Source: Enterococcus hulanensis
GTDB lineage: Bacteria > Bacillota > Bacilli > Lactobacillales > Enterococcaceae
DNA length: 64,000 nt
Direction of reading: 5' to 3'
NCBI RefSeq assembly: GCF_005405485.1
Contig: NZ_BJED01000008.1
Coordinates: 124,001 to 188,000 of the forward strand
Shown: positions 9,361 through 55,727 of the stretch, one piece after another
Layout of the letters: each line of letters opens with the position of its first letter
Numbering within the stretch: the first letter of the stretch is position 1
The notes under the pieces: model-generated
Databases searched by the model: none
What the model was told of the DNA's origin: nothing
Seen by the model: the letters and a program-made list of their open reading frames with translations, nothing else
Position numbers and translations under genes: made by a program

Positions 9361-9433
9361 TTAATTTGTCTAAATTTCTTAATAGACCGTCAGCAAAATA
9401 ATCTTCCCGATCCAATTATTTTTTAATCCCTAA

Positions 9434-9558
9434 ACAAGGTATCCTGACTTCGCTTCATCCTACTCTCCTGCCTTCCCGTTAAGTGGCAATCTAGATTTCG
9501 TCTGCTTATACAGTAGAAAGGGGCTGCTGAGGATTCTCACCTCATTCCCTTGTCCAGT
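9434..9558 (-). promoter_or_regulatory. Cobalamin (B12) riboswitch, intact copy
   Basis: Read on the minus strand the element contains, in order, GTGAGAATC, an ACAGCCCC-like paired region (CAGCCCCTTTCTACTGT), GACGAAAT, GCCACTTAAC, GGGAAGGC, and the 3' B12 box AAGTCAGGATACC. These are the conserved blocks of the cobalamin riboswitch in the right order. It lies about 75 nt upstream of a terminator hairpin and about 130 nt upstream of the ECF S-component gene, so it would repress the whole cob operon when adenosylcobalamin is abundant. Confidence 0.92.
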
Positions 9559-9580
9559 TATTAATTATTCGGTTTTTATT

Positions 9581-9599
9581 ATTATAGCAAACGTTTACA
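9581..9599 (-). promoter_or_regulatory. cre box (CcpA site) abutting the cob operon -10 box
   Basis: The minus strand reads TGTAAACGTTTGCT at 9586-9599, matching the cre consensus TGWAARCGYTWNCW at all 14 positions, and it runs straight into TATAAT at 9581-9586. No good -35 box is evident. A CcpA complex bound here would block RNA polymerase, so the cob operon is probably catabolite-repressed in addition to being riboswitch-controlled. Confidence 0.7.
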
Positions 9600-15812: not shown

Positions 15813-15831
15813 GCAAATTTCTAAAACATCA

Positions 15832-15904
15832 CACATTCCCTGCGTCAGTTCTAACTGTTTCAGGTTCAATGGGTATAATCTCAGCTCTAAAAGCACCCCT
15901 AGTG
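15832..15904 (-). promoter_or_regulatory. TPP (thi-box) riboswitch
   Basis: The minus strand reads GGGGTGCTTTT ... GCTGAGA ... ACCC ... GAACCTGAAACAGTTAG ... GCGTAGGGA-like (GACGCAGGGAATGTG), the conserved thi-box order. A possible extended -10 promoter, TGCTATACT, lies about 20 nt upstream (near 15919-15927). The element controls tenA through downstream terminators. Confidence 0.93.
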
Positions 15905-15972
15905 TCATTCAATTACTAAAAGTATAGCATACCTTTTTAGAAAAAACGATTCCATTTAAGGTATTTCAACAA

Positions 15973-24355: not shown

Positions 24356-25513
24356 TTATAAATAATTCGCTTTTTTTAATTCATCCTGAGCCGCTGGCAA
24401 ATTCTTCTCATTGACGAGAACGATCGGTCCAGTACAGCCCATTCCGCTTTCCGCGTAAATATCGGCTTCCCATAAAACCTTCACCGCATCTTCTAATTCC
24501 ATGATCTCGATCCCAGCAATCTCACTGGTCACGATCTCCTTGGCTGGCGGTTCGATTTCCTTCGTTTGTGCTGCGGGTGCCGCTGTCAGCTCACTGCAAA
24601 TTTGTTTCAAACCTGCTTGATCGGCTTTTTGGTATTCGGTCTGACTGACTTTTCCCAGCTTACCTTTTGCTAATTCATACGCGTATTCCAGAGCATTCGC
24701 GATTACCGGTGCACCGCTGGCCCGCGAAATGATACAGATATTGCGATCATAATGACGACCGATCCCCGGACCATAGCCTGCACCCAAGGTCTCGTAATTT
24801 CCGCCGCTTGAATAAGCAGAAAATAACTTCATTAAAATGTTGCCGGTCAGACTATCACAGACTACGACGTCAACACTGCCTAGCAATAAATCATTGCCGC
24901 GCAGAACTTTCCCGCCATCTTCGCGTTGACTTTCGCCAAAAGCAAGCTCATAGCCATTTTCTTGCAGCGCAATTAATGAACGCTCGACTGTTTTGGCACC
25001 CTCGACATTTAGAATACCGATTGTCGGCTGTTTGATTCCGCAAGCTTTCGCTGCCACGAGTCCATTGATTGCATTCAATACCATCGCTTCATTGCGAGCT
25101 CCGCTGGTCGTCCCAGTCGTGGTCGCGATATACAGCTCACGTCCCAATGCGGGAGTGATGACCTTACCGACAGTAGAAACGCCGATTGGAAAATTATAAT
25201 GTAGCGTCACACAGCCTTGGATTTCGCCGCTGTCCAACAGCTCTTCCATTAATTCAGCCGCTTCTTTTTGACAATCAGTGGTCGAATAATGTTCAAATTC
25301 TGCTGCCCACTCAACGTCGCTGCCGATCAAAACCAAATCAAAAAGATTCTTTTGCTTAATAGCAAACGCCGCCTGTTTCATTACATCAAGACCTAACTCG
25401 CTGCCATCAATGGTCAACCCGATCTTGATTTTCGCTTCCATTCGTCCAGTTTCCAAACTAGTTGCTAAATCCTCGAAAACTTTTTTGACTGTTTGTTTCA
25501 CTTGATCAGACAT
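24356..25513 (-). CDS. grdD: GrdD, glycine reductase complex C subunit alpha
   Basis: GrdD with GrdC forms protein C, which accepts the carboxymethyl-selenoether from GrdA and releases acetyl phosphate. The 385-residue protein has PlsX-like fold segments (KIGLTIDGSELGLDVMKQAAF, GATTSGARNEAMVLNA-like, and GAGYGPGIGRHYDRN). Only ATG 25513 has a clear ribosome site 8 nt upstream (AGAGG); an in-frame GTG nine bases earlier is an alternative. Last gene of the grd operon, followed by a terminator. The region around residues 295-330 is a proline/alanine-rich linker. Confidence 0.92.
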   Translation of the reverse strand: MSDQVKQTVKKVFEDLATSLETGRMEAKIKIGLTIDGSELGLDVMKQAAFAIKQKNLFDLVLIGSDVEWAAEFEHYSTTDCQKEAAELMEELLDSGEIQGCVTLHYNFPIGVSTVGKVITPALGRELYIATTTGTTSGARNEAMVLNAINGLVAAKACGIKQPTIGILNVEGAKTVERSLIALQENGYELAFGESQREDGGKVLRGNDLLLGSVDVVVCDSLTGNILMKLFSAYSSGGNYETLGAGYGPGIGRHYDRNICIISRASGAPVIANALEYAYELAKGKLGKVSQTEYQKADQAGLKQICSELTAAPAAQTKEIEPPAKEIVTSEIAGIEIMELEDAVKVLWEADIYAESGMGCTGPIVLVNEKNLPAAQDELKKANYL

Positions 25514-25524
25514 TGCACTCACCT

Positions 25525-27060
25525 CTATTCCGCTGAAAGATTGGCAGCAAAGCTTCTCAAGGCTTGCGCAACTTCACGTTTCACCATTTCTTCTAGATCT
25601 TGCTGATTTTCTTCAGACACTTTTCCACTGTTTCGCTCAATCAAAATTGACACACCATCAAACAAATTGGTCATCCGTCCCAAGAATAAGGAACCTTTCC
25701 CAACGATCATGGCACGTTTTTTATCACCTGTAACTAAATCTTCTGCCGCGAAACCTAAATAAGGAATTCCGCTTGGAATGTGGCCCTGTGTTGGTGCCCA
25801 GCCTACTAGAGCCTTCTCATCGACAAAGGATTTCATATCTTTCTTTTCAATATCTTTACGCAGCACGCCAATAGCTCCAATCATTTTCAGATTAGCCAAT
25901 GGCACGTCACCCGCTCCTGCCGGCTTCGTAATATCCGGATTTTGCATTTCAACCGAATACACGTCGATATCCTTAATCGTTAATTGAGCTTTTTCTAAAA
26001 TACTAGCAATCAAAGCGGAAGTAACCGCCTGAGGACTTGAACCGCTGCCAACCTCATGTTTACCAGTAAGATCATGACGTAAAACTGGATGAACCCCGTC
26101 ATTTTCACTGATTAAGGCCGCAAAACCACCTAAAACATCTTCTAAAATCGGGAAGCCCTTGCCTACGTGTGACTTGCCGTTCATTCCTAATTTAGCCGTT
26201 GCACCGCCAGCCACAAGGACGACATTTTTATGGGTCCCTGCTGCTACTAAAGAAGCTGCTGTGATCAAGGCATGTGTCGGCCCAGCACAAAAACTCCGAA
26301 TATCCGACCCTGTCGCATGCTCACATCCGCATAATTCAGCGATTGATTTGGCGAAGTTCCCGCCACCGCGCTGATTCATGTCGCCGCAGGCTTCTTCACT
26401 GCATTCGATTACATAGTCAATTTCTTTGGGATCAAGCTGATGCTTGTCGATCAATTGGCGCAGAGCCAATACACCGCTAGCTTTCACCACCAAATTTTCC
26501 AGCATCACATGAGCATTCAAATTCACATCAATTTGATGAGCAGGACTTACACAACCAACCAATTGGTGCTCATAATACAAAGCCTCTGCATGATTTTCCG
26601 CAATATCCTTTTCGATCCAATCAAGCGGTTTGCCCTCTTTGATTTTCTCCACGTCGTCTTTAAACAAAGGATGATTGCTTAATGCTTCACGCACAGTTGC
26701 TGCAAAGCCTTCTTCCAAGTGAACCAATTCGAACACGTCAGCGATCTGCAGCAAACCATAAAACTCTAGCTCCGGCATAATTTCGCCGAACTTGCCTTCA
26801 CGTTTGCCCTCAAATGTTTGATTGACCCATGGTTGAGGAATTTCCTTCAGCTCTTGATAACTTAAGTTCCCGATAAACGTTTGATTCGGTGCATAGTTAA
26901 CCACTTCATCGTAACTGCGAATATTGTCATAAAGATTCGCTAAGTAAGGACTGTCTGGTGTCGTAATCTTTTCCATAGTTTGAGTTGTTCCATTATGTTC
27001 GATCATATCAGGCGTATGGACCAAGACATAACTTGCCCCTCGTAAAGTTGAATATTTCAT
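25525..27060 (-). CDS. grdC: GrdC, glycine reductase complex C subunit beta
   Basis: FabH/KAS III-like subunit of protein C that works with GrdD in forming acetyl phosphate. The 511-residue protein has the sequence YSTLRGASYVLVHTPD at its start, thiolase-like SEEACGDMNQRGGGNFAKSIAELCG near residue 225, and DIRSFCAGPTHALITAASLVAAG with the conserved cysteine near residue 255. Start chosen at 27060, 6 nt after a GGCGGG-type site; ATG 27066 is directly on it. It lies 12 nt downstream of trxA. Confidence 0.93.
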   Translation of the reverse strand: MKYSTLRGASYVLVHTPDMIEHNGTTQTMEKITTPDSPYLANLYDNIRSYDEVVNYAPNQTFIGNLSYQELKEIPQPWVNQTFEGKREGKFGEIMPELEFYGLLQIADVFELVHLEEGFAATVREALSNHPLFKDDVEKIKEGKPLDWIEKDIAENHAEALYYEHQLVGCVSPAHQIDVNLNAHVMLENLVVKASGVLALRQLIDKHQLDPKEIDYVIECSEEACGDMNQRGGGNFAKSIAELCGCEHATGSDIRSFCAGPTHALITAASLVAAGTHKNVVLVAGGATAKLGMNGKSHVGKGFPILEDVLGGFAALISENDGVHPVLRHDLTGKHEVGSGSSPQAVTSALIASILEKAQLTIKDIDVYSVEMQNPDITKPAGAGDVPLANLKMIGAIGVLRKDIEKKDMKSFVDEKALVGWAPTQGHIPSGIPYLGFAAEDLVTGDKKRAMIVGKGSLFLGRMTNLFDGVSILIERNSGKVSEENQQDLEEMVKREVAQALRSFAANLSAE

Positions 27061-27072
27061 AAACATCCCGCC

Positions 27073-27396
27073 TTAAATATATTTCTGGATCATTTCTTCG
27101 ATCGCCTCTTTAGTACAATCATCTTTAGCTACTTCGTCAACTTTTTCACCATTTTGGTAAATTGAAATGACCGGCAGACCTAGGATTTTATGCTGGATAC
27201 AAAAACGACGAACTTTTTTTTGTGAGGTATTAAATTTTGTGAAACGGAGTTTTTCCCCGTATTTGGCGTGCAACTCTTCTACATCAGGCATCAAAGCCAA
27301 GCAGTTTTCACAAGTCTCGCCCCACCAGTCTACTAATACTGGCGTGTCTTGTTCCAATACTTCTGCAGCAAAATTATCAACAGTTAATTCAATCAT
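27073..27396 (-). CDS. trxA: Thioredoxin with CENC active site
   Basis: A 107-residue thioredoxin that would carry electrons from TrxB to the Grd selenoproteins. The active site is WWGETCENC (Cys29, Cys32) instead of the classic WCGPC. Otherwise the fold is normal, with cis-Pro in ILGLPVISIYQNG near residue 75 (LP-VIS). Thioredoxins adjacent to grd genes in amino-acid-fermenting clostridia also deviate from WCGPC. The ATG overlaps the trxB stop as ATGA. Confidence 0.92.
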   Translation of the reverse strand: MIELTVDNFAAEVLEQDTPVLVDWWGETCENCLALMPDVEELHAKYGEKLRFTKFNTSQKKVRRFCIQHKILGLPVISIYQNGEKVDEVAKDDCTKEAIEEMIQKYI

Positions 27397-28361
27397 GTTA
27401 CGGGTGCCTCCCTTTTGATTTTTTCTACATATTTTTGAGCTGAAAATGCCGCGGTTGCACCATCACCAGTAGCGGTCACAACTTGGCGCAGAACTTTCGG
27501 ACGCATATCTCCGGCTGCAAAAACACCTGGGATTTGCGTACACATCGCTTCATCAGTGATCATATAGCCGTATTCGTTTAATGGAATTTTTCCTTCATAA
27601 AGCTTCGTGCTTGGCACATTGCCGATAAAGACAAAGATACCGAATAGTCCATCGTCTTCATCTGCTTCAAATCGGGTTAACTCGTCGGTTTTCGTATTGC
27701 GGATCGTCATAGCTTCCACCATACCATCGCCTTCGATATTTTCCACAACTGAGTCAAAAATATATTCTATCTTTTCATTGGCTTTGGCTTGCTCAACAGC
27801 GATCGCGTCCGCAGTCAGATCACTTAAATTTTGAATGATCGTCACTTTACGAGCAAATGTCGTAATGAACATTGCTTCTTCCACCGCTGAATTCCCGCCG
27901 CCGATCACAAATACTTCCATGTCTTCGAAAAAGGCCCCATCACAAGTTGCACAATAAGAAACACCTTTTCCGGCTAATTCACGCTCGCCCGTACAACCGA
28001 TTTCTCTGGGAAAAGCGCCATTAGCACAAATAACTGCATGTGCTTCGTACACACTGCCGTCATTACAAGTAATTTTTTTGACACTGCCTTCAAGATCCAA
28101 GTCTGTCACTTCTTTGCGCAGTTGAATCTCGGCACCAAATTGTTTCGCCTGGTCTGCCATTCGCCTGATCAACTCTGGACCTGAAGTTTCTTCATCCGTT
28201 GATTTGATTGATCCAGGGAAATTCGCAATTTCATGAGTCGAAACAATTTGACCGCCTAATTTTGTTTTTTCTAAAAGCAGAACATTTAAGCGTGCTCTTG
28301 CATTATACAAAGCTGCTGTTAATCCGGCTGGTCCGCCGCCGATAATAATTACATCGTACAT
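27393..28361 (-). CDS. trxB: Thioredoxin reductase
   Basis: NADPH-dependent flavoprotein that reduces the operon's thioredoxin. The 322-residue length is normal; FAD site VIIIGGGPAGLTAALYNARA at the N-terminus, redox motif SYCATCDGAFF near residue 140, NAD(P)-binding VIGGGNSAVEEAMF near residue 155, and C-terminal GVFAAGDMRPKVLRQVVTA. It stands 62 nt after grdB with its own GAAAGGAGC-like site and is coupled to trxA. It is one of probably several thioredoxin reductases in the cell. Confidence 0.94.
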   Translation of the reverse strand: MYDVIIIGGGPAGLTAALYNARARLNVLLLEKTKLGGQIVSTHEIANFPGSIKSTDEETSGPELIRRMADQAKQFGAEIQLRKEVTDLDLEGSVKKITCNDGSVYEAHAVICANGAFPREIGCTGERELAGKGVSYCATCDGAFFEDMEVFVIGGGNSAVEEAMFITTFARKVTIIQNLSDLTADAIAVEQAKANEKIEYIFDSVVENIEGDGMVEAMTIRNTKTDELTRFEADEDDGLFGIFVFIGNVPSTKLYEGKIPLNEYGYMITDEAMCTQIPGVFAAGDMRPKVLRQVVTATGDGATAAFSAQKYVEKIKREAPVT

Positions 28362-28422: not shown

Positions 28423-29724
28423 TTATTCAAATACCGTTTGTTCATCTACAGGTGTTGTTAATGCCTCTAACGCTTTTTCAACGATCCCGCGACGAAGCTT
28501 TTGCTCTTCCTTCAAGCTTAGGCTTGGATTTCCTAATGGATGAGGAATCGCGACAGCTGGAACGATTCGGTTCGCACCTACTGTTTGTGAGATTGGAACC
28601 ACTGTACAAATATGAACCACAGGCAGACCTGTTTTTTCAATTTCTTTTACCATCGTTGCACCGCAACGAGTACAGGTTCCTCAGGTGGATGTCAAAATAA
28701 CAGCATCGACACCATCTGCTAATAATTTTTGTGCGATCTCAGCCGCATATTTCTTGGCATTGGCAACGGCAGTCCCGTTCCCTACTGTCGTGTAGAAGTA
28801 ATTATGCAGGCTGCCGATCACGCCTTCTTTTTCCATTTTTCTAACTATATCTAATGGCAATACTCGGTTAGGATCTTGGTTTGCATACACAGGGTCATAC
28901 CCACCATGAGCCGTTTCGTATGAGTCAGCGGTCAAAGTATCAACGTTTTCAATAGAATATGTTCCATACTTCGAAGCACTACTCGATTCGATTCGATCTG
29001 GGTTGCCTTTAGGAACAATCCCACCGGAAGTTACAAGCGCGATCTTCGCTTTCGATAAATCACTTATCGCGGTGGCTGGCGCGACGTTATCAAATTCAGG
29101 CATCGGATATTCGGTCGTAAATTCTTGTTCATTCAACTTACGTACCAGCATATCCACCGCTCTAGCAGAGCCGCGTTTTTCATCCTGAAAATTCTTTCGA
29201 TAACGAACAAAGTAATTATCCGTTTCCGGTGAAACTTGTTCCTTCTTCAACAATTTCAACGCAAGACTTGCAAGTACAGGTACTGCTTTTCTCATACCCG
29301 CCGCACTATTTCTAGTCGGTACGATATAAGCACCCTTTTTGTACATTTCAACTCCAGGGTTTTCTTCATACATCCCCGTCACAGCAGGGATGCCCAGTTC
29401 AGTCATGACCGCTTGAGCAACTTCGCCGCAAGCAATGCCGTATCTGCCGGCGTTAAAAGCCGGACCCGCAACAACAATATCTGGTTCAAATTGTTTGATT
29501 CGATCTAATACATCTTTTTTGGCACTATCCAAATTCTCGTTAAAGAAACTGTCGCCGCACACAACGGTACCGACGATTTCTGCTTCATCACCAAATGAAT
29601 TCATAAAAGCAAGACCTGGTCCTACTACTTCGGCTTTCGAGAATGGTTGGATATCCGCCTTTTCTTCACCACCTATACCAGCGTAAAACTGGTTAATGTA
29701 GTGAACAACTTTAAACTTAGTCAT
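28423..29724 (-). CDS. grdB: GrdB, glycine reductase protein B selenoprotein (in-frame UGA = Sec348)
   Basis: Substrate-specific subunit for glycine, taking part in Schiff-base activation and transfer of the carboxymethyl group to the GrdA selenol. The frame runs from ATG 29724 to a TAA at 28423 only if the TGA at 28681-28683 is read as selenocysteine (codon 348), within VILTST-U-GTCTRCGATMVKE. This U-x-x-C context and the whole 433-residue length fit GrdB, and the sequence stays family-like on both sides (N-terminal VVHYINQFYAGIGGEEKAD, then VAGPAFNAGRYGIACGEV). A hairpin sits 12 nt behind the UGA. The family has close relatives for betaine and sarcosine, so glycine specificity rests on operon context. 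Confidence 0.93.
28654..28668 (-). promoter_or_regulatory. Candidate bacterial SECIS hairpin in grdB
   Basis: Read on the minus strand, a perfect 6-bp stem CGTTGC-GGT-GCAACG begins 12 nt after the UGA at 28683-28681. Its short G-containing apical loop and distance are consistent with a SelB-recognised bSECIS. I judged this by eye only. Confidence 0.55.
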
Positions 29725-29742
29725 AAGACGCTCCTTTACTGG

Positions 29743-30216
29743 TTAGTATTTGGCGTATTGATTCCTCATTTCGGACACTTCTTCAATGATGTCATCAACA
29801 TCTAAAACCATTTCCATCATGCCGATCTGCTCTTCAAAAACATCTGAGTCGACAACTTCTTTAAATTCTGGCTCTACAGCGTGATATACAGCTAAACCTA
29901 GCTGTTCATTGGTCAATGGACCGGCATACGTAGGGTCTCCGTTAGTTACAGTTTCAGCAGCTAAACCAGCTGCTTCTCCTTCGGCAGCACCGATTAGAAC
30001 GACGACGTTCTCTGCTCCGAAGTTTTCTGCTGCTTCTTTTACTCTACGTTGATTCTCTAAGTCCATTGCCCCAGCGGCCGTTCAGACGAAACATTCTGTT
30101 GATGAGAATATTACGTCAGCGCCGGTACCTTCAATACAAGCTTCGATAGCTTGTCCTGGGATACCGTCACGGTCGCCGATCACTAAGACTTTTTTATTTT
30201 TTAAATCTAAAGTCAT
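29743..30216 (-). CDS. grdA: GrdA, glycine reductase selenoprotein A (in-frame UGA = Sec45)
   Basis: Small selenoprotein that carries the carboxymethyl-selenoether from GrdB to GrdC/GrdD. From ATG 30216, codon 45 (30082-30084) is TGA within [18 protein letters not shown]; the Cys-x-x-Sec core (CFVU) matches GrdA. With readthrough the protein is 157 residues, the family size, and ends [12 protein letters not shown]. Without it there is only an unconvincing internal ATG of 30066. A GGAGG site lies before 30216. Between grdE and grdB, order as in known grd operons. Confidence 0.95.
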
Positions 30217-30239: not shown

Positions 30240-31526
30240 TTAAACGCCTTTTGCAGACATTTTGTTAAAACCTAGTTCATTTGTTGCACCGGTAATTGCC
30301 TGGATTTCAACTTCAATCGTGCCATCGTCTTTCAGACTGCCGTCAAAGCCGCCTGCGATCACATCGACATAATCTAATTGCCCAATCAAGCGATCCATTT
30401 TTGGTAATTGGATCGTTTCATTTGCGTTTCCGCCAGTGACAACTGCAGTTGCTAATTTATCTGCATCTGCTAATGACTGGCTAGCACCATCTCTTCCAGC
30501 ATATTCATCTGTAACAATTACTGTTTTGATTCCTTTTTCTTCGACTTTTTTACAGTTCATGATCAAGTCCGTATCAGGATTCCCAAAGCCTTCTTGGGAA
30601 ATAATCACCCCGTCTAACCCGAGATATTCGCTCAATTTCGCGACAAAATCGCTGGAACGGTGTTTATCCTTTAGATAGACTGTTTCATTTGTGACGATCA
30701 CACCTAAAAAGTTAATCTCTTTACCGTGTTGTTTGTACAAATCAGCTATCACCGGATTATTTAAGTGATGATACGTCGTGTTCTTGTCACAAGCAGAAAC
30801 ACAGTTTCCGCTGATGATCGCGCCATCCATTACTTCTGTTGGATAGAGGATGGTTGGTACGATGTGCTTCGCATCTGTGCCGTAAACATAAGTATCATGA
30901 AGCAATCCTTGTGTTTGCAGCATATAAACATACCCAATTTTCGGCAGATCTGGATATTGCTGAATCTGTTCTAACAGCGGCAAAGTCTCAAATGTTTCAA
31001 TGGTATCTGGTTCGATCATTTCACCCAGCTTGCCGATATAATCAGCTGTTTTCAGTCCTGCAAAACGAGCCGCTTCTTCATATAAATGAGGATCTAACTC
31101 TTCTTGCGGTTTCAAGACTAAACAAATTTCGATTAATTGTGAGAACGGCGTCAGTTCAGAGCCAGGTCCTTGCATATCCACAATACCTTCTTGAAAACCA
31201 ACGATTTTCCCCACGGTCATGACACCGCAGCCTTTTAATACATGAGTACGTCCGCTTCCCACAACATCTACTTTGTTGATAACACCTGGGAAAATACCTG
31301 TTGTTGAATCAACCTTGCATCTTGGTTCGATCACATCTTTAACTGGTGTGATGCGAACACTGTCACCTGGTTTAGCGATTTCGATCTTGCAGTCAGCTAA
31401 ACGATCATCTGTTAAAACCAACTCTTTGATTTTTGCCGGATCGAGATACAGCGTTCCATTATCGACTTTCTCTTCTTCACCTAAAACAACTTCTTTGATT
31501 TCGATGTTTCCAATTTCGAGTTTCAT
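30240..31526 (-). CDS. grdE: GrdE, glycine reductase component B alpha/beta proprotein
   Basis: Proprotein that is cleaved into two subunits of protein B, giving a pyruvoyl-like carbonyl that binds the amino group of glycine. The 428-residue sequence begins [16 protein letters not shown] and contains [20 protein letters not shown]; the cysteine of the NC pair is residue 242 and is the expected cleavage residue (established for the family, not shown here). Other conserved stretches are [17 protein letters not shown] and [19 protein letters not shown]. The gene starts after grdX by 40 nt. Confidence 0.95.
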
Positions 31527-31566: not shown

Positions 31567-31944
31567 TTATCGTGCCACCCCCATTCTGTCCAACGTACTT
31601 TGCGCGATATAAAAGTCTACAAAAGCAAAATCTTTGAGTACCGCTAAGGACCAATTAGGGCGCTGCTTATTTTTGATAAACTTTTCATAGACGGCTATCG
31701 CTGATTCGATATATTCTAAACTCTCAATATCAATGTATTGAGAAGTGGTCTCTGCTGCAAAAATCGTTTTATAATAGGTTTCGTTTGGTTTGATACTGCC
31801 GCTTAGTGGATGTGACAGTAAGCAGACGTGTTTTTCGATTATCTGTCGCTTCACTTCGTCCAATACGTCTCCGTATGAACCTTCCACATAACTAACCTCG
31901 CCTAACTTTTCTTTTACCATTGGATTATTCGTTATGATAAACAT
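31567..31944 (-). CDS. grdX: GrdX family protein
   Basis: A 125-residue protein at the head of the operon, in the place GrdX occupies in other glycine reductase operons. It has MFIITNNPMVKEKL at its start and the family-like VCLLSHPLSGSIKPNETYYKTIF segment around residues 40-62. The function of GrdX is not established. It follows the riboswitch terminator, so it is the first gene switched on by glycine. Confidence 0.85.
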   Translation of the reverse strand: MFIITNNPMVKEKLGEVSYVEGSYGDVLDEVKRQIIEKHVCLLSHPLSGSIKPNETYYKTIFAAETTSQYIDIESLEYIESAIAVYEKFIKNKQRPNWSLAVLKDFAFVDFYIAQSTLDRMGVAR

Positions 31945-32019: not shown

Positions 32020-32057
32020 TAAAAAAGGGGACAACGACACACTGTGCCGTTGTCCCC
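32020..32057 (-). terminator. Terminator downstream of glycine riboswitch
   Basis: Minus-strand hairpin with 12-14-bp arms GGGGACAACGGC/GTCGTTGTCCCC followed by TTTTTT. It directly adjoins the second glycine aptamer and would be disrupted on glycine binding, turning on grdX and the operon. Confidence 0.9.
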
Positions 32058-32230
32058 TGTTCCTAGCCTGAGAGATTCCCCCCTTTCAGGGGTTGCTCCT
32101 TCGGCGCATTTCTGCTCTCCAGAGTTTCATCCAATTGCGGTCCATTTACCTGAGATGTTCACTGCAAAATCAGCAAATTTTACAACTTATACCTTCGGTG
32201 GCAGTAGCTTCTGCACTCTCCCGCAATCTT
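32055..32230 (-). promoter_or_regulatory. Tandem glycine riboswitch (two aptamers)
   Basis: Minus strand. Aptamer 1 (about 32140-32230) has GCGGGAGAGTGC, GCCACCGAAGG and CATCTCAGGTAAATGGACCGC; aptamer 2 (about 32057-32135) has CTCTGGAGAG, GCGCCGAAGGAGCAA and AATCTCTCAGGC. The short linker and order fit the cooperative glycine riboswitch. With the glycine-consuming operon behind it, this is an activating switch. Confidence 0.93.
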
Positions 32231-32242
32231 CTTGAATATTTA

Positions 32243-32562: not shown

Positions 32563-32946
32563 TCATGATCCGCCTAATAGTGCCAAAGGTTCTTTGATAA
32601 ACTGAGTGTATAATGTTTTTATTTTCTTTGAGACAAAAGTAAGCGCTGAAAATAAACGGCTTGTCAGTGACCGCCATTCTTTTTCAGTAAAATACTCCTC
32701 AAAATATTTATAGTAGCGGCGCAAAGCCCGAGTTGATTTACTATTAAAGAAGATATGGCGAACAAGATCTTGATGGAAAAAGGAAAAATCGGCAATTCCT
32801 AATTCATCACGCACTTGAAGCGCTATCAAATATTTAATAATCGATTCTTCATCTCCAGTTTCTTCGTAATACGTCATCATTCTTTTTTCTAGTGTCTTTC
32901 TTTTTAAGGTGAATATCTGATTTGCAGTAAATGGTGAATTCGTCAT
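32563..32946 (-). CDS. Hypothetical protein (127 residues)
   Basis: Not recognised. A 127-residue, basic, mainly helical protein with no signal peptide. It begins MTNSPFTANQIFTLKRKTLEKRM, has a YYKYFEEYFTEKEWRSLTS helix pair and ends IKEPLALLGGS. A strong GGAGGG site lies 6 nt before the start. It is upstream of, and in the same direction as, the grd operon, but 600 bp and a riboswitch away, so it is probably independent. Confidence 0.65.
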   Translation of the reverse strand: MTNSPFTANQIFTLKRKTLEKRMMTYYEETGDEESIIKYLIALQVRDELGIADFSFFHQDLVRHIFFNSKSTRALRRYYKYFEEYFTEKEWRSLTSRLFSALTFVSKKIKTLYTQFIKEPLALLGGS

Positions 32947-45426: not shown

Positions 45427-45722
45427 TAAGAAAGGCTTCGCGAACTCGCTCAGCTTTTGAGCACCAAGTAGGTACTGTTCCACATCAGCTCCAAAGACCA
45501 ATCGCTGTGTCTCACAGCAATAAGACCAAAATATTTCTAAATTGCTTCTCAAATTTCGAAATATTTTTGCTTATTGCCGATATGCTAGTTCTGCTTAATG
45601 CTAATTTAGCAGCAACTGGCTGGGTCACACCGTTGTGTAGAAAGGCTAGTTCGTGAAGCCAGACATGGATATACCCGCTACAAAGCGATTTATTCATGTG
45701 AAAATTTTATACTTTCTTTATA
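45427..45722. repeat. Dispersed intergenic repeat, copy 1 (longer)
   Basis: Shares three blocks with copy 2 at 58206-58385: GAAAGGCTTCGCGAACTCGC, AATTGCTTCTCAAATTTCG and AAGCCAGACATGGATATACC. It carries two extra segments of about 60 nt that copy 2 lacks. A 61-residue open frame in it is broken by the deletions in copy 2, so I do not call it a gene. No terminal inverted repeats seen. Possibly a remnant of a mobile or regulatory element. Confidence 0.7.
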
Positions 45723-45723
45723 A

Positions 45724-45760
45724 AAAATGAGCTTCCTAAAATAGGAAGCTCATTAAACTA
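45724..45760 (-). terminator. Terminator of the sugar ABC operon
   Basis: Minus-strand ATGAGCTTCCT-ATTTT-AGGAAGCTCAT followed by TTTTTTA. It lies 21 nt after the last permease gene's stop. Confidence 0.9.
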
Positions 45761-45780
45761 TATCTATTTTGAAACCCGTA

Positions 45781-46812
45781 TCAGACCACCACATCGATGG
45801 ATTCGTCTATAGTTTCTTCTTTTGTTTTCTTTGTATCTTTCGTTCGCTTGCCGCGATTTACGATCGCCACCTGCATGACGATACAAAGGAGCATCAATAA
45901 CCCGACAAAAATCTTCGTCCACCACGAGCTGAGGGTCCCTTGAAAATCTACCATCGTACGAATCACACCCGTAATTAAGACACCTATCACCGGTCCAATC
46001 AAGGAGCCGACACCACCAGTCAATAACACCCCGCCGATTACACAAGCAGCGATAGCGTCCATTTCTAACCCCTGAGCATGCAAGCCATAGCCCGATAATG
46101 TGTAAAAGCTGAACATCACACCAGCCAATGACGATCCAAAACCACTTAAAGAGTAAATCATAATTCTCGTGCGATCCACCGGCAGGCCCATCAAGATTGC
46201 CGACTGCATGTTGCCGCCGATGGCAAAAACGGTTCGGCCAAATTGAGTATATTTTGACACATAGATACAAGCAAGTACGAAGACGATCGCAATCAACACA
46301 TTCAGCGAAATAAAGTAACCCGGCAGCAAATAGATTTTAAATTGCGACAGCTTATAAAACGTATCATCCGTAATCGGGATCGACTCGATCGAGATCAGAT
46401 AGCAGACGCCGCGGGCAAAAAACATTCCGGCAAGCGTAACGATCCAAGGATGCATCTTGAAATATTGGATAAGAAAGCCTTGAACTGTTCCAAATGCAAT
46501 ACCAATTAATAAGCAAAGGACGATTACAATAAAAGCATTCAACCCTTTTTGCAGCAAAGCAGCCGCAATCATCGACGTCATTGCGATCACTGCACCAACG
46601 GACAAATCAATACCGCCTGTTAATATTGGAAAACAAATCCCACAAGCCAGCACGATTAGATGGGCATTATTGATAAATAGATTCAAAACAACCCGCAATG
46701 ATAAAAAGCTAGGATACATCACTGAGCCCGCCAAAAACATCAAGAGGAAAATTCCAATGGAGGCCAACAACGGAATATTAAAATTACCAAGCTTAATTTT
46801 CAATCGAAACAC
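45781..46812 (-). CDS. Sugar ABC transporter permease (YjfF-like)
   Basis: A 343-residue inner membrane permease with about nine helices of the ribose/galactose (BPD_transp_2) family. It has CGICFPILTGGIDLSVGAVIAM near residue 57 and VIGGVLLTGGVGSLIGPVIGVLI near residue 255. Its charged Lys/Glu-rich tail (EETIDESIDVVV) is odd. The frame starts at GTG 46812, overlapping the other permease by 20 nt; TTG 46803 has a slightly better ribosome site. Fourth gene of a binding protein-ATPase-permease-permease operon. Confidence 0.88.
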   Translation of the reverse strand: MFRLKIKLGNFNIPLLASIGIFLLMFLAGSVMYPSFLSLRVVLNLFINNAHLIVLACGICFPILTGGIDLSVGAVIAMTSMIAAALLQKGLNAFIVIVLCLLIGIAFGTVQGFLIQYFKMHPWIVTLAGMFFARGVCYLISIESIPITDDTFYKLSQFKIYLLPGYFISLNVLIAIVFVLACIYVSKYTQFGRTVFAIGGNMQSAILMGLPVDRTRIMIYSLSGFGSSLAGVMFSFYTLSGYGLHAQGLEMDAIAACVIGGVLLTGGVGSLIGPVIGVLITGVIRTMVDFQGTLSSWWTKIFVGLLMLLCIVMQVAIVNRGKRTKDTKKTKEETIDESIDVVV

Positions 46813-47809
46813 CTGCCTTTCTTTTCTGCTTCATTGCTGTCGACCATTCTTTCATTTTTTCAGAAGAAAGCAGCACCACAAATATTACCACGATCGCTTT
46901 GACTACCATGATCGTCTCTGACGGAATCCCAAAAGTAAAAATAGTTGTCGTCAAGGTTTGGATAAACAGAGCACCGACTACTGTTCCGCCAAGATAGAAT
47001 TTCCCGCCATCCATCGACGTGCCTCCCAATACAACTGCTAGAATCGCATCAAGCTCCAACATCAGTCCGTTATTATTTCCATCTGCACTAGAAACATTTG
47101 CGCTATCCATCATTCCGCTCAATGCTGCCAGCACACCACAAATTATGTAGCATATCCATAAAACTTGCCGCGTATTGATCCCTGCATAGCGAGCGGATTG
47201 CTCATTAATCCCGACCGATTCGATCGACAGCCCTAACGAAGTCTTTCTTGTCAGCAGATAAACACCCAGAACGATCAATCCCATCAAGATTGCTGGAAAA
47301 GGGATTCCTAAAAAATAGCCTCGGCCAATAAATGAATAGGAAGTCTTTCCTAAAGTCAAAATTTCACCGCCGGAAATAATTTGAGCAAACCCGCGACCGA
47401 CTGTCATCAAGATCAACGTTGCAATCATCGGCTGGATATTCAGTTTAGCTACCAAAAAGCCATTCCATATCCCGCAAAGACAGCCCACAATTAGACCTGC
47501 TGCAATTGCCGCAACAACCGGAGTCCCAATTGTCAGTAAATAAGCAGCGACCATCGCTCCCAAGGCGTTGACTGAGCCGACCGAGATGTCGATGCCTCGA
47601 GTTGCGATTACTAAACACATCCCGATTGAAACGATGACCAATGAAGCTCCACGATTTAAGACATCGATCATACTTCCATATAAGTGTCCGTTATTAATCG
47701 ATAATTTGAAAAAGTTCGGTGAAAATATTAAGTTGAACAGTAAGATCAGTAATAGACCGACTACTGCCCACAGTTCCTTGCGTTTTAACAACCGTTTGAG
47801 TTTTTCCAT
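46793..47809 (-). CDS. Sugar ABC transporter permease (YtfT-like)
   Basis: A 338-residue permease, about nine helices. VSIGMCLVIATRGIDISVGSVNALGAMV near residue 60 (quoted here in part), MTVGRGFAQIISGG and AVVLGGTSMDGGKFYLGGTV near residue 255 are the family marks. It forms the channel with the YjfF-like partner as a heterodimer. Its ATG shares a base with the ATPase stop codon. Confidence 0.9.
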   Translation of the reverse strand: MEKLKRLLKRKELWAVVGLLLILLFNLIFSPNFFKLSINNGHLYGSMIDVLNRGASLVIVSIGMCLVIATRGIDISVGSVNALGAMVAAYLLTIGTPVVAAIAAGLIVGCLCGIWNGFLVAKLNIQPMIATLILMTVGRGFAQIISGGEILTLGKTSYSFIGRGYFLGIPFPAILMGLIVLGVYLLTRKTSLGLSIESVGINEQSARYAGINTRQVLWICYIICGVLAALSGMMDSANVSSADGNNNGLMLELDAILAVVLGGTSMDGGKFYLGGTVVGALFIQTLTTTIFTFGIPSETIMVVKAIVVIFVVLLSSEKMKEWSTAMKQKRKAGVSIEN

Positions 47810-49311
47810 TACGATACCTCCCCGGCAATAGCGCTCATGATATTGTTCTCAGAAATTTGCTCCTCAACCAATTCAGCCACTGAAAGCCGATCTCTTAGCA
47901 CGATGATCCGATCGCAGCAGCGAACCATTTCCTCATACTCAGAAGAAATGAACAAGATCGACATCCCTTTTCTGGAAATTGAAAGAATCAGACTTTCAAT
48001 TTCCCTTTTTGAACCAATATCGATTCCCCTCGTCGGTTCATCCAAAATTAGAAGCTTAGGATCGGTTACCAGCCAACGAGCCAATAACACTTTTTGCTGA
48101 TTTCCCCCCGATAACTCACCAACTTTTTTATCGGCATCTGGAGTTTTGATGTTCAATAGCTTTATATATCTTTCAGCAATCTCTTGCTGCTCTTTATAAC
48201 CGATTCGTTTCCAGCCCCGTTTTGCCTGCAAAGACACGATGATATTTTCACGAATACTCAAATCAGCCAAAATCCCTGAGACCTTTCGATCTTCAGAACA
48301 AAAGCCGATATTTTCTTTGATAGCCTTTTGCGGGAACATTTTTTTAATATGATCATTATCGATGTAAAGAACACCTTCATCAAACTCTTGTGCCCCAAAC
48401 AACAGCTCGGCTACCTCGCTTCGACCAGAACCCAAAAGCCCTGCTAAACCTAAAACCTCGCCTTCACGAATCTTCATGGAAAAATCATTGATCACGCCTT
48501 TTTTTGTGACATTCCGCATTTGAATAAAACTCGTTTGCGGATAATCGGTGGTTTTCCTGAATGCCCGAGAATCCTCATCCTTGAATTCTTGACCAATCAT
48601 TTTAGTCACCAAGTCGATCTGGCTTAGTTCATTTGCAGGATATTCTCCAATCCAGCGGCCATTTCGCAGTACAGTAATTCGATCAGAAATGGCATAGACT
48701 TGATCCAAGAAATGAGTTACGAACAAAATGGCCATTCCATTATTTTTCAACTCGCGAATAATCTCAAATAATTGCTCTACCTCATTGCCGTCCAAACTAG
48801 ATGTCGGCTCATCTAATATCAAAACCCCGGCCGACATATCTACCGCCCGTGCGATTGCAATCATCTGCTGAACGGAAACAGAGTAGCTGTCGAGTGTTTG
48901 CGTTACATCTACATCAATCTTCAATGTTTCTAACAGCTTCTTAGCATCCTCATTCATTTTCTTCCAATCAATCTTGCCCAGCTTCTTTGGTTGTCGACCA
49001 ATATAGATATTTTCTGCTACCGTTAGATTTGGACACAAATTGATTTCTTGATAAACCGTACTGATGCCGGTCTCTTGTGCTTCTTGCGGTGTCTGCGGTT
49101 CAATTTCTTGATTATTCAGTACAATCGTTCCGCTGGTTTTAGGATAGACACCGGTCATTACCTTGATCATGGTAGATTTTCCGGCACCATTTTCGCCCAT
49201 TAACGCGTGGACCTCACCTTTACGAAGCTTGAGCTTTACATCATCTAATGCCTTTACCCCGGGAAATTCTTTCGAAATATGCTCGAGGGAAAGGATCACT
49301 TCATTTTCCAT
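47809..49311 (-). CDS. Sugar ABC transporter ATPase (YtfR/RbsA-like, two ABC domains)
   Basis: A 500-residue ATPase with two ABC domains in one chain. First domain: Walker A ALMGENGAGKSTMIKVM near residue 45, signature VSVQQMIAIARAV, Walker B VLILDEPTSSLDG near residue 160. The second has GLLGSGRSEVAELLFG as a degenerate P-loop near residue 290 and LSGGNQQKVLLARWL near residue 400. This asymmetry is normal for RbsA/MglA/YtfR. Start chosen at 49311, after GGAGGAAT; a longer frame upstream lacks a site. Confidence 0.92.
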   Translation of the reverse strand: MENEVILSLEHISKEFPGVKALDDVKLKLRKGEVHALMGENGAGKSTMIKVMTGVYPKTSGTIVLNNQEIEPQTPQEAQETGISTVYQEINLCPNLTVAENIYIGRQPKKLGKIDWKKMNEDAKKLLETLKIDVDVTQTLDSYSVSVQQMIAIARAVDMSAGVLILDEPTSSLDGNEVEQLFEIIRELKNNGMAILFVTHFLDQVYAISDRITVLRNGRWIGEYPANELSQIDLVTKMIGQEFKDEDSRAFRKTTDYPQTSFIQMRNVTKKGVINDFSMKIREGEVLGLAGLLGSGRSEVAELLFGAQEFDEGVLYIDNDHIKKMFPQKAIKENIGFCSEDRKVSGILADLSIRENIIVSLQAKRGWKRIGYKEQQEIAERYIKLLNIKTPDADKKVGELSGGNQQKVLLARWLVTDPKLLILDEPTRGIDIGSKREIESLILSISRKGMSILFISSEYEEMVRCCDRIIVLRDRLSVAELVEEQISENNIMSAIAGEVS

Positions 49312-49346
49312 GTAGGGATTCCTCCTTTTATCGCGATCCATAAAGT

Positions 49347-49381
49347 TTAAAAAAGGAATAGAGCGACCTCTATTCCTTTTT
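49347..49381 (-). terminator. Hairpin between binding protein and ATPase genes
   Basis: Minus-strand AAAAAGGAATAGAG-GTCG-CTCTATTCCTTTTTT, a terminator-like hairpin. It probably reduces readthrough, so the binding protein is produced in excess over the membrane components, a usual arrangement. Confidence 0.8.
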
Positions 49382-49386
49382 AAGTA

Positions 49387-50403
49387 TTAGTAAGGTCTTG
49401 GTAGGTTTTCTTCTGCGTTCTTACTATCAAAGATACCGTTTTCGACAAATACTTCCTTCTTAACTTTTTCGCCTTTGGCTAATTTTTTAGCTGTTTCGAT
49501 GATGTCTTCTCCGTATAACGGGCTGCACTCAACTACACAATTGATCTTTCCATCGACAACTTGTTCCAATGCATCGTTAGTTCCATCGAAGGAAATGACT
49601 GTAATATCTTTTCCAGGTACTTTTCCTACCTCTTCGATTGCTTGAATTGCCCCCATTGCCATATCATCATTTTCCGAGAAGAGTACATCAATGTTATCGC
49701 CATTCGATTTCATGAAGGCTTCCATTACTTCTTTGCCTTCCGCACGAGTGAAGTTACCAGACTGCTGTTCAATGATTTTCCAGTTTTTGTGTTTCTTGAC
49801 TCCTTCCGTAATTCCAGCCGTACGTCCAACTTGCGCAGAAGATCCGGTGGTCCCTTGCAGATGGGCGATATTCAATGCATCGCTTTCTTTGCCCGTTTCC
49901 TTCAACTGGTCTTCTAGCCATTTAATTCCTCTTTCACCTTCATCTTTAGAGTCGGTTCCGATCCAAGCGCTGTACAAGTCGTCGATCTTCTTGCCTTTCA
50001 TCTTCCGGTCAACGATCAATACAGGAATATTCGCATCCTTCGCTTCTGTCAAAACAGTTTCCCAGCCAGTTTCCACAACCGGAGCCACTGCGATTACGTC
50101 TACACCTTGTTGAATGAAGTTACGAATAGCCGAAATTTGGTTTTCTTGTTTTTGCTGTGCATCAGAGAATTTTAAATTGACGTTCGGATCATTTTTCGCC
50201 GCATCTTGAACTGATTTCGTATTGGCTGTCCGCCACTGACTTTCAGCACCTAATTGAGAAAAACCGATAGTAATTTTTTCGTCTTTCCCTTTTTTAGCAC
50301 TAGAGCCATCTGTAGAACCGCCACCGCCACCACAACCAGCTAACAATGTAGCAACTAATGTAAGTGACAAGAACGCGCTGACCAAATTTTTCTTTTTCAT
50401 CAT
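49387..50403 (-). CDS. Sugar-binding lipoprotein of ABC transporter (YtfQ-like)
   Basis: A 338-residue periplasmic-type binding lipoprotein. The signal peptide ends in the lipobox TLLAGC (Cys 23) after a KKKN-hydrophobic start and is followed by a Gly/Ser linker. The domain starts ITIGFSQLGAESQWRTANTK, has RNFIQQGVDVIAVAPVVETGW near residue 100 and ISFDGTNDALEQVVDGKINCV near residue 270. This GFSQLGAESxWR start is shared with YtfQ, the galactofuranose/galactose binder of E. coli. The second, related lipoprotein at 50643 is its likely sensory paralogue. A perfect cre box lies 45 bp upstream. Confidence 0.92.
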   Translation of the reverse strand: MMKKKNLVSAFLSLTLVATLLAGCGGGGGSTDGSSAKKGKDEKITIGFSQLGAESQWRTANTKSVQDAAKNDPNVNLKFSDAQQKQENQISAIRNFIQQGVDVIAVAPVVETGWETVLTEAKDANIPVLIVDRKMKGKKIDDLYSAWIGTDSKDEGERGIKWLEDQLKETGKESDALNIAHLQGTTGSSAQVGRTAGITEGVKKHKNWKIIEQQSGNFTRAEGKEVMEAFMKSNGDNIDVLFSENDDMAMGAIQAIEEVGKVPGKDITVISFDGTNDALEQVVDGKINCVVECSPLYGEDIIETAKKLAKGEKVKKEVFVENGIFDSKNAEENLPRPY

Positions 50404-50447
50404 TTTCCCTCGCTTCTTCTTTTGATGAGTTAATCATAAAGCGAAAT

Positions 50448-50461
50448 TGAAAACGCTACCA
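50448..50461. promoter_or_regulatory. cre box (CcpA site), divergent transporter/sensor region
   Basis: TGAAAACGCTACCA matches the cre consensus at all 14 positions. It lies 45 bp upstream of the binding protein gene and 182 bp upstream of the sensory gene. The rest of the 239-bp divergent region is AT-rich and should hold the promoters and the response regulator's binding sites. Confidence 0.75.
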
Positions 50462-50642
50462 TGGATCATTTATGCTAAATTCCTTTAAATATTTCAGGCT
50501 TTTCCCTAAACTAAAAAATAAACGTCAGAGAACCTTGATTATTTTTAGATAGTTCCTTAAAAAAATTTCGATTTGCTATCTTTGGTATATTTTTTTTCAT
50601 ACAATATAGGTAAGAATAGTTGAGGATTTGAGGGGAAGAAAA

Positions 50643-51611
50643 ATGAAAAGGGTTTCACTTTTAATAGTACTGCTTTTACTGCTTACTAGCTGCTCTGCTG
50701 GAAAATCCAAGTCAGGTACAGATAAGAAACAATACGTGATCGGTTTTTCTCAGATCGGTGCGGAAAGTTCTTGGCGGGAACGTAATACCGAATCGGTCTT
50801 AGACGCAGGAAAAAAAGCCGATTATAAGATCCTTTATAAAAATGCTAACCAAAGCCAAGCAGAGCAAATCAAGGACGTACGTTCCTTCATCGCTTCACGC
50901 GTTGACCTGATTATTTTGACCCCCATTGTGGAGACTGGATGGAAGCACGTCTTAGAAGAAGCTGCTGCGGCCGACATTCCGGTTGTTATTAATGATCGGC
51001 TGATTTCAGAGGAGGATTCTCACCTTTATCAAACTTTTGTTGGTCCAAATGTGCCTATTCAAGGAATTCAAACAGCCGACTTTCTAAAAAAGAAATTTAA
51101 AAATGTTCCTGCACCGATCAATATCGTCGAAATCCAAGGAAGCAAAGATGCTTCACCAGCTATCAGCCGGCATGCTGGTTTACTGGAAGGTATAAAGGAT
51201 GATACTCGTTTTCAAATGATTGCTTCCGTTCATGGCGACTTTATGCTCTCCAAAGGCCGCGAGGCAATTAAGAATGTGGCCAAATCTCATGATCTTCGAC
51301 AAGTGGATGTGATTTACTGTCACAATGATGATATGACCGACGGCGTAGTCTCCTATTTAGAAGAAACGGATATCAAACCGGGAAAAGACATTATTATTTG
51401 CAGCGTTGACGGTCAGCAAAGTGCGATTAATCTGCTAAAGGCTGGGAAAATCAACTGCGTAATCGAATGTGATCCAAATATGGGTGAAATGCTTTTTGAG
51501 GTCGTAACTGCTGTATTGGAAGGAAAAGACGTTCCCAAAGAGAACTTTACTACCGGAAGGATTTTTTCTGAGTTTTCTGAGTTGAATAAAATTGAGGAAC
51601 GAGGGTATTGA
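50643..51611 (+). CDS. Sensory sugar-binding lipoprotein (YtfQ/XylFII-like)
   Basis: A 322-residue periplasmic-binding-protein-like lipoprotein (signal with lipobox LLTSC, Cys 18). The domain begins YVIGFSQIGAESSWRERNTES, nearly the same start as the transporter's own binding protein, and has RSFIASRVDLIILTPIVETGWK and CHNDDMTDGVVSYLEE. It is the first gene of an operon with a histidine kinase and response regulator, so it probably senses the ligand outside and talks to the kinase. Start chosen at ATG 50643 after AGGGGAA. Confidence 0.9.
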   Translation: MKRVSLLIVLLLLLTSCSAGKSKSGTDKKQYVIGFSQIGAESSWRERNTESVLDAGKKADYKILYKNANQSQAEQIKDVRSFIASRVDLIILTPIVETGWKHVLEEAAAADIPVVINDRLISEEDSHLYQTFVGPNVPIQGIQTADFLKKKFKNVPAPINIVEIQGSKDASPAISRHAGLLEGIKDDTRFQMIASVHGDFMLSKGREAIKNVAKSHDLRQVDVIYCHNDDMTDGVVSYLEETDIKPGKDIIICSVDGQQSAINLLKAGKINCVIECDPNMGEMLFEVVTAVLEGKDVPKENFTTGRIFSEFSELNKIEERGY

Positions 51612-51613
51612 GT

Positions 51614-53062
51614 ATGAAGCGGATAAGTATCGGAAACACCTTAAACTTTCATTATAAGCTGGTGATTCTCTTAGTCATTTTACCGATGGTATTCATCAGT
51701 GTTTTCTTCATGGTCAATATTTTTCAATATCGGAAATCAATTGAGAACGTCAACTATGTCAACAAGTTGAATTCTGAAATGGCTACAAAAATCGACAACT
51801 CGGTTTTTTATTTGATTACCGGAAAACCCACAAAAATGCAGGACCCCGCTGAATTGATTCTTTATTATCACAAAAAACTGGACACATTGAAGACCAGCTC
51901 TTCTTCCGTCGATCAGCAGCAGACCTTAGATGTGGCAAAACGCATATTAGACACTGATCGCCATTATGTGAATACGATCAAAGATAATATAGCCACAGAA
52001 AAACCAATCAGTGAGAGTGAAGCGATCCTAGTCGAAATTCGCAACGTCAATGTTCTATTAAAAGACACCTTACAGGAATTTGTGACGGGCGAGATCAATC
52101 TCTCAAATAAAAAGAGCAATCAGATTTTCCAAACGATTATTATTTTGCTGTTTTTAGAACTCTGTTTAGTCGTCATTCTCATTCTTATTATCAGCCGAAA
52201 TAAAAAAGATTTAACTGCCCGAATACAGACACCAATGGACAAAATTCTAACTTCCCTCTCTGAAGTTTCTAAAGGAAACTGGGATACTCAGGTGGAAAGC
52301 TCTGAAATCATTGAGTTTGACCTTTTATCGACTGAGGTCAATCAAATGACCACTCAGATCAAAGCGCTAATAGAACAAAACGAACGTAAACAACAAGCAA
52401 TTGCCAAAGCCGAATTGAAAGCCTTGCAGGCCCAAATAACGCCCCATTTCATTTACAACAGCTTAGATGCGATCATCACCTTATCAGAATTAGATGAACC
52501 AGAACGGGTGGTCGAAACAACACTAGCCTTATCGAATTTTTTTAAGCTGACACTAAACAATGGCAAAGATTGGGTGACCGTCCAACAAGAAATCGAACAT
52601 GTCAAAAGCTATCTGCAGATTTTAAAAACTCGCTATGGCTCGATTTTAGAGTATCAGCTTATGATTGATCCTTCGATCGAGAACATTAAAATGCTAAAAA
52701 TGATTTTACAGCCGCTCGTTGAAAATGCCATGTATCACGGGATTAAACACAGCCGCCGACGCGGACTCATCGAAATTCGCGGGACACAGCAAAATCAAAT
52801 GCTGATCTTTGAAGTCGCAGATAACGGCAGCGGGATGTCCCCTCGGCAAGTGGCTGAGCTGCAAAAAAATATTCAAGAGCTCGATCCTACTGGTGTATCT
52901 GGCGGTTATGGACTTTATAATGTTTATCGCAGATTGCGGCTTTACTTTGGTGCGGCAGCTGAGCTGCGAATAGCTAGTCAAGAAAATCAAGGAACAACAG
53001 TTACAATCATGCTGCCGATTCGAGATGATGCGTTTTTAGAAACGGAGGAAGAAGATGCTTAA
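51614..53062 (+). CDS. Sensor histidine kinase (LytS/YesM-like)
   Basis: A 482-residue membrane kinase. It has a hydrophobic segment at about residues 17-37, an extracytoplasmic region to about residue 175, a second membrane segment (IIILLFLELCLVVILILII), a HAMP-like linker, then the His kinase motif ITPHFIYNSLDAIITLSEL with His278. The ATPase region has LVENAMYHGIKHSRR near residue 375 and GGYGLYNVYRRLRLYFG near the end. Start chosen at ATG 51614, 2 nt after the lipoprotein stop, with GAGGG upstream. The extracytoplasmic part presumably contacts the lipoprotein. Confidence 0.92.
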   Translation: MKRISIGNTLNFHYKLVILLVILPMVFISVFFMVNIFQYRKSIENVNYVNKLNSEMATKIDNSVFYLITGKPTKMQDPAELILYYHKKLDTLKTSSSSVDQQQTLDVAKRILDTDRHYVNTIKDNIATEKPISESEAILVEIRNVNVLLKDTLQEFVTGEINLSNKKSNQIFQTIIILLFLELCLVVILILIISRNKKDLTARIQTPMDKILTSLSEVSKGNWDTQVESSEIIEFDLLSTEVNQMTTQIKALIEQNERKQQAIAKAELKALQAQITPHFIYNSLDAIITLSELDEPERVVETTLALSNFFKLTLNNGKDWVTVQQEIEHVKSYLQILKTRYGSILEYQLMIDPSIENIKMLKMILQPLVENAMYHGIKHSRRRGLIEIRGTQQNQMLIFEVADNGSGMSPRQVAELQKNIQELDPTGVSGGYGLYNVYRRLRLYFGAAAELRIASQENQGTTVTIMLPIRDDAFLETEEEDA

Positions 53063-54626: not shown

Positions 54627-54663
54627 ACCTAAGAAGAAAATCAAGTTCTTCTTAGGTTTATTT
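54625..54663 (+). terminator. Terminator after response regulator
   Basis: Hairpin AAACCTAAGAAGAA-AATCAA-GTTCTTCTTAGGTTT followed by TATTTTT, right behind the stop codon. Confidence 0.9.
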
Positions 54664-54776
54664 TTCTGCAGTTTTCCAACATCCGTCAAATTCTTAAACA
54701 CTTATATTTCCATATAAAGAGTGCCTGAACCTCGACTAACTTAAAAATCATCGCATCCATTAGAAAATGAAACGTT

Positions 54777-55637: not shown

Positions 55638-55727
55638 ACATCATTCCTCCTTAACCTTCTTCCTTCATAGTAGTCTATCCAATTAAAACTATCCACAACA
55701 CATCCATAAATACACTCAATAAAATAA

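Follow-up and report, generated by a model that had tools for sequence, protein, structure and literature searches.

Enterococcus hulanensis carries a complete glycine reductase operon in which two genes, grdA and grdB, each contain an in-frame UGA. Comparative sequence analysis makes it very probable that both codons are read as selenocysteine (Sec), with the Sec-decoding set most likely on a megaplasmid while the operon lies in a chromosome-like contig. The operon was found in a 64,000-nucleotide stretch of the genome (the window). Its genes are intact, the UGAs are conserved, a SECIS element is recognizable for grdB, and a Sec-decoding set is present in the genome.

All eight genes of the operon grdX-grdE-grdA-grdB-trxB-trxA-grdC-grdD, which a first-pass annotation had listed leaving the strand unstated, were recovered by open reading frames combined with NCBIfam and Pfam profiles, and all are read in one direction from the minus strand of the window (table 1). 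NCBIfam cut-offs are passed by GrdX, GrdA, GrdB, GrdC, GrdD, and TrxA. No NCBIfam model exceeds its cut-off for GrdE, but its Cys242 (in the motif GNCVSAC) is invariant in 22 of 22 aligned rows and is presumably the cysteine turned into the pyruvoyl group. TrxB just misses the cut-off of TIGR01292 (332.2 bits; cut-off 343.45) and scores 380.8 bits on TIGR03143 (cut-off 687.65). Within the genome grdA is a single-copy gene, and two acetate kinase (ackA) genes exceed their cut-off. Beside the operon, the protein encoded at window positions 32563-32946 has a beginning that by eye resembles that of a protein on the Sec contig (locus L016, 8022-9029), both being without a Pfam match. Elsewhere in the window are a cobalamin riboswitch (9417-9586), ahead of what by eye appears from its gene names to be a cobalamin-synthesis cluster, and a TPP riboswitch (15819-15910; Rfam).

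Table 1. Features of the glycine reductase operon, with positions counted in the window
Feature	Position	Strand	Evidence
Tandem glycine riboswitch (aptamers 32233-32128 and 32124-32055)	32055..32233	-	Rfam RF00504
Intrinsic terminator where the second aptamer ends, 15 pairs and T tail	32026..32058	-	
grdX	31567..31944	-	NCBIfam NF038093, 123.7 bits, cut-off 40
grdE, predicted pyruvoyl-forming subunit of protein B	30240..31526	-	Pfam PF09338, 676.8 bits
grdA, selenoprotein A, Sec at codon 45	29743..30216	-	NCBIfam NF040748, 261.1 bits, cut-off 130
In-frame TGA (Sec45) of grdA	30082..30084	-	
grdB, selenoprotein B, Sec at codon 348	28423..29724	-	NCBIfam TIGR01917, 689.9 bits, cut-off 602.2
In-frame TGA (Sec348) of grdB	28681..28683	-	
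SECIS element of grdB (SECIS_4), immediately 3' of the TGA	28643..28680	-	Rfam RF01990, 65.3 bits, gathering 38
trxB, thioredoxin-reductase-like, TGA stop	27393..28361	-	Both NCBIfam models below cut-off
trxA, thioredoxin with CENC site	27073..27396	-	NF047697, 154.9 bits, cut-off 140
grdC, component C beta	25525..27066	-	NF040746, 789.5 bits, cut-off 450
grdD, component C alpha, GTG start	24356..25522	-	NF040747, 567 bits, cut-off 350

The proposal that grdA and grdB are broken by TGA exactly at the known Sec positions, and are otherwise full-length family members, stands. grdA has 157 codons with a single TGA in the context CFVU and grdB has 433 codons with a single TGA in STUGTC, both ending in TAA, and the over-cut-off profile matches of both proteins continue through the TGA; GrdA has a CxxU and GrdB a UxxC Sec site. 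A plain reading of open reading frames divides grdB into pieces of 347 and 76 amino acids and yields a 107-amino-acid piece of grdA. The expectation of split genes in automated annotation is correct for a plain ORF caller but out of date for RefSeq, in which grdA, grdH, and prdB of Enterococcus gilvus plasmid pCR1A are annotated at full length. The Pfam model PF07355 (GRDB) matches GrdB residues 1-347 (window 28684-29724), ending one residue before Sec348 as if it had been built on UGA-truncated proteins.

Exactly one in-frame TGA is present in 28 of 28 grdA and 32 of 32 grdB rows, comprising the window and loci picked from 80 fetched GrdB loci (the L067 grdA, lying on the opposite strand, was left out). 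In eight comparisons within Enterococcus, the 85 codons of grdB 3' of the TGA show 23-30 synonymous versus 3-12 amino-acid differences, and the corresponding 112 codons of grdA 10-28 versus 0-9; judged by these codon differences, the stretch behind the UGA is evolving as protein in both genes. Synonymous constraint 3' of the UGA is unexceptional, being as low in 10 of 95 to 36 of 142 scan windows for grdA (four settings) and in 25 of 382 and 32 of 365 for grdB (two settings). As trxB of the same operon stops at TGA, this codon has not been reassigned as a whole, ruling out a recoding of every TGA.

The SECIS_4 element of grdB is the only one above the gathering score genome-wide and is present in all eight relatives scanned; the stem-loop sequence 3' of the grdB UGA is nearly the same in the clostridial rows. 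For grdA, Rfam gave no SECIS match at E up to 10, and nothing convincing emerged from single and alignment folding (a weak fold 3' of the UGA) or from the synonymous-constraint scan. This lack of a detectable grdA SECIS is what could be said for both TGAs being true stops in decayed or silent genes, or being read as an ordinary amino acid. Such a reading is scarcely credible in view of the single TGA kept in every grdA and grdB row, the protein-like evolution behind it, the SECIS_4 element in grdB, the Sec machinery in the genome, and the TGA stop of trxB.

A sarcosine (or betaine) reductase is quite improbable, even though the sarcosine GrdF model gives GrdB a marginally higher score (695.5 bits) than the glycine model does, the best NCBIfam model for GrdE is the sarcosine GrdG (662.6 bits), and the models for GrdA, GrdC, and GrdD serve glycine, sarcosine, and betaine reductases alike. 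Both sarcosine scores fall under the curated cut-offs (800 for GrdF and 780 for GrdG), as does the betaine GrdH score (554.2; cut-off 775), and the only one of these cut-offs that GrdB passes is that of the glycine model, TIGR01917. The betaine-type GrdB proteins of relatives are only 46.8-49% identical to that of the window, and a tandem glycine riboswitch heads the operon. On the curated cut-offs and the riboswitch we rejected the sarcosine/betaine identity and retain glycine reductase.

The two glycine aptamers, upstream of grdX, reach 57.2 and 38.4 bits (gathering score 32). Folding of the leader is more stable than that of shuffled sequences (z -5.70), and the terminator search found one terminator in the leader region against a mean of 1.0 in shuffles. 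At least one aptamer precedes the operon in seven of eight relatives scanned and both in four of the eight, the locus without any being L040. We predict that abundant glycine turns the operon on through the tandem riboswitch, which would keep the terminator (32058-32026) from forming. The grd operon of Clostridium difficile is likewise preceded by a glycine riboswitch, thought to be an ON switch according to a passage in PMC11477304.

The earlier claim that this organism decodes Sec is supported, at the level of gene content, by the presence of selA, selB, selC, and selD in its draft genome (4.74 Mb, 47 contigs). One selA, one SelB, and one tRNA-Sec exceed their cut-off or gathering score, ARAGORN also finding a tRNA-Sec, and selD and yedF, both over cut-off, lie in the same cluster as selB and selA together with a cysteine-desulfurase-like gene (csd). 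A further UGA-containing gene, prdB, lies near prdA and prdC.

Because the genome is a draft, replicons have to be assigned by synteny with other species. In Enterococcus malodoratus ATCC 43197 (G009) the only tRNA-Sec and the only over-cut-off SelB are on contig C2 of 1,188,036 bases, where selA and tRNA-Sec open the sequence and selD, yedF, selB, and csd close it. These coordinates fit an exact circle, csd finishing at 1,187,996 and SelA residue 9 beginning at base 3. C2 has no 16S match and no dnaA over cut-off, and additionally encodes a betaine-type GrdB alongside a PrdB-like frame. Contig C1 of the same genome carries an over-cut-off dnaA and the glycine-type grdB, with 16S matches on C1, C3, and C4. 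The contig of the window (C8) is collinear with E. malodoratus C1:526,001-615,102 over ~92 kb, and the Sec contig of the same assembly (C16) matches E. malodoratus C2. A 17-kb stretch of the window (45434-62733) is missing from the collinear chromosome, and within it tannase and PTS genes (58481-60893) match Enterococcus raffinosus plasmid pCX012922 at 79.5%.

Of a 14.2-kb stretch of the Sec contig, the five E. raffinosus megaplasmid records found match 97-98% and E. gilvus matches 88%; plasmid matches reach at best 32% for C16:40001-60000 and 91% (in three of six records) for C16:92001-112000. For the operon stretch of C8 the best plasmid match is 3%, and for other stretches of that contig at best 0% and 8%. 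Counting against the split, besides that 3% and the low 32% of C16:40001-60000, 22% of C8:1-20000 is matched in megaplasmids, and for window 36000-60900 two plasmids give matches over 12% and 10%. A search of the six matching Enterococcus plasmid records gave no glycine-type GrdB, the best GrdB match there being 47.7% identical. The dnaA gene is on C5, neither the window contig nor the Sec contig, and no 16S gene was found in this assembly.

That Sec decoding and the grd operon share one replicon in this strain, so that the E. malodoratus arrangement would not apply, is unlikely. The draft state of the genome leaves room for it, and in another genus of the family (G025) selB, tRNA-Sec, and a PrdB-like frame do lie on a 2.8-Mb contig with dnaA. 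Against it are the collinearity of the window contig with a chromosomal contig, the matches of the Sec contig to five megaplasmids and to the E. malodoratus circle, and G+C contents of 42-44% in four Sec-contig stretches versus 38-39% in four window-contig stretches. In 13 of 13 GrdB genomes, moreover, grdB is on a contig other than that of selB and tRNA-Sec, weak evidence in drafts. We conclude from this synteny that a megaplasmid is the most likely location of the set selD-yedF-selB-csd-selA with tRNA-Sec, in which case the chromosomal operon would depend on a second replicon for reading past its UGAs.

The organism, which from its DNA alone had been said to look like an Enterococcus, belongs with the Enterococcus avium group, and the nearest named GrdB proteins are those of E. 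raffinosus N17, Enterococcus pseudoavium, and E. avium. A GrdB match at E 1e-20 occurs in 17 of 20 genomes of the genus; 13 of the 20 have a full-length GrdB (77-100% identity, one TGA each) and 5 have a betaine-like match of 48-49%. In the family the TIGR01917 cut-off is passed in 13 of 105 genomes, all in Enterococcus. tRNA-Sec and an over-cut-off SelB occur in the same 23 of these 105 genomes, and all 13 GrdB genomes are among the 23 (Fisher 8e-11, for related species that are not independent). Of the 23, 22 have a PrdB-like frame containing one TGA, suggesting that proline reductase is the constant client of Sec decoding and glycine reductase an addition. The remaining genome (G005) has SelB and tRNA-Sec without a PrdB or GrdB match, likely owing to a contig gap, since its contig has 7.1 kb before selB starts, and in G012 a PrdB-like frame precedes selB by 7.8 kb. 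Genome G095 has a TGA-free PrdB-like frame (C1:420399-421004) and no over-cut-off tRNA-Sec or SelB, consistent with a non-Sec version.

Glycine reductase was introduced in the first-pass annotation as best known from clostridia, a contrast now weakened because the operon is not confined there: in Lactobacillales the GrdB cut-off is exceeded in 26 of 395 genomes, every one of them having a single TGA. This clostridial association, and the occurrence of prdB and selB on plasmids of several genera, might suggest that the strain acquired the operon recently from clostridia, which we regard as highly improbable. In a GrdB tree of 49 rows (47 of the 80 fetched loci, top hits only, plus the window and one betaine GrdH), 25 Lactobacillales rows form one clade with support 100/98, and the E. 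avium group has the same operon order and flanks; a recent single-strain transfer is rejected by this tree. The operon is not exceptional for Lactobacillales, and what seems less expected, on the contig matches above, is Sec decoding on another replicon.

The clostridial system (C. difficile CD2357-48 and relatives) has the same subunits, with Sec in grdA (CxxU) and grdB (UxxC). It differs in that trxB-trxA, here after grdB, precede grdE in five of seven loci from outside Lactobacillales, and in that the present host is a lactic acid bacterium with its Sec set probably on another replicon. GrdB proteins of the E. avium group, Vagococcus, Loigolactobacillus, Aerococcus, and Facklamia are 68-97% identical and keep the UGA, and the eight-gene order is the same in 15 of 31 loci compared, including L029 with an only partly matched grdD. 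The loci of Aerococcus and Facklamia have grdA and grdC separated from grdX-grdE-grdB or placed outside the locus, and in two Vagococcus loci grdA is behind trxA. The partial grdD match on the E. pseudoavium contig (L029, 9031-9705) has one in-frame stop, reflecting either assembly error or decay.

Enterococcus megaplasmids carry betaine reductase (grdH) and proline reductase (prd), which are also selenoprotein reductases but plasmid-borne. In E. gilvus pCR1A grdH and prd share a replicon with the Sec set, and grdA is there too; in E. raffinosus pCX012922 prdB and sel genes are on the same replicon. GrdH-like matches occur on two of five E. raffinosus plasmids, and the plasmid GrdB-type proteins are 46.8-47.7% identical to that of the window. 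The genome of the window has prdB without a GrdH-like match. On pCR1A, hypD for trans-4-hydroxy-L-proline dehydratase (L118, 2936-5338) is ahead of the betaine reductase operon.

A published precedent for a replicon split exists in Terrisporobacter, whose 21-kb plasmids carry selA, selB, selC, selD, and prd while the glycine, sarcosine, and betaine reductase genes are chromosomal (PMC10564238); the section of that paper on the plasmids is silent on dependence. Terrisporobacter differs in belonging to the Clostridia, in plasmid size (21 kb vs about 1 Mb), and in a SelB only about 40% identical. Within Lactobacillales, a 2006 paper gives the orphan SelD of Enterococcus faecalis as the only SelD seen in the order (PMC1794560), and grdB, selA, and selB are named in Enterococcus durans in PMC8894896. 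The main texts of two E. raffinosus megaplasmid papers (PMC10323788, PMC8650288) contain no word beginning with "selen", and among titles and abstract openings we found no paper on this operon or on split replicons in Enterococcus. Five Ligilactobacillus salivarius plasmids (215-360 kb, e.g., NZ_LT604075.1) carry prdB, selB, and a stretch ~95% identical to the tRNA-Sec of the window's genome, possibly a mobile prd-sel module.

Glycine reductase uses a pyruvoyl GrdE and the Sec carriers GrdB and GrdA and yields acetyl phosphate. By analogy with the known enzyme, GrdE would cleave itself at Cys242 to form the pyruvoyl group that binds glycine, and Sec348 of GrdB and then Sec45 of GrdA would carry the two-carbon unit to GrdC/GrdD. 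These would release acetyl phosphate, from which acetate kinase would make ATP, and TrxB and TrxA would re-reduce GrdA with NADPH. For a lactic acid bacterium, glycine reduction may thus be an electron sink that also yields ATP.

Stickland-type reduction and Sec decoding are usually thought of as clostridial, yet enterococci of the E. avium group carry the genes for reduction of glycine, D-proline, and in some cases betaine, together with those for Sec decoding. If the megaplasmid split holds, the meaning of a chromosomal codon would depend on a second replicon. We think it likely that reading of UGA as Sec is plasmid-borne in the E. avium group as a whole, no SelB or tRNA-Sec being found in the cell beyond those in the prd-sel module of a ~1-Mb megaplasmid, which also has selA and selD, with chromosomal glycine reductase as a dependent client. 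Were this true, gain or loss of that replicon would change how UGA is read in chromosomal genes, and plasmid-free cells would truncate GrdA at 44 and GrdB at 347 residues. Taken with prd-sel modules of a similar kind on plasmids of Ligilactobacillus and Terrisporobacter, it would amount to a portable expansion of the genetic code.
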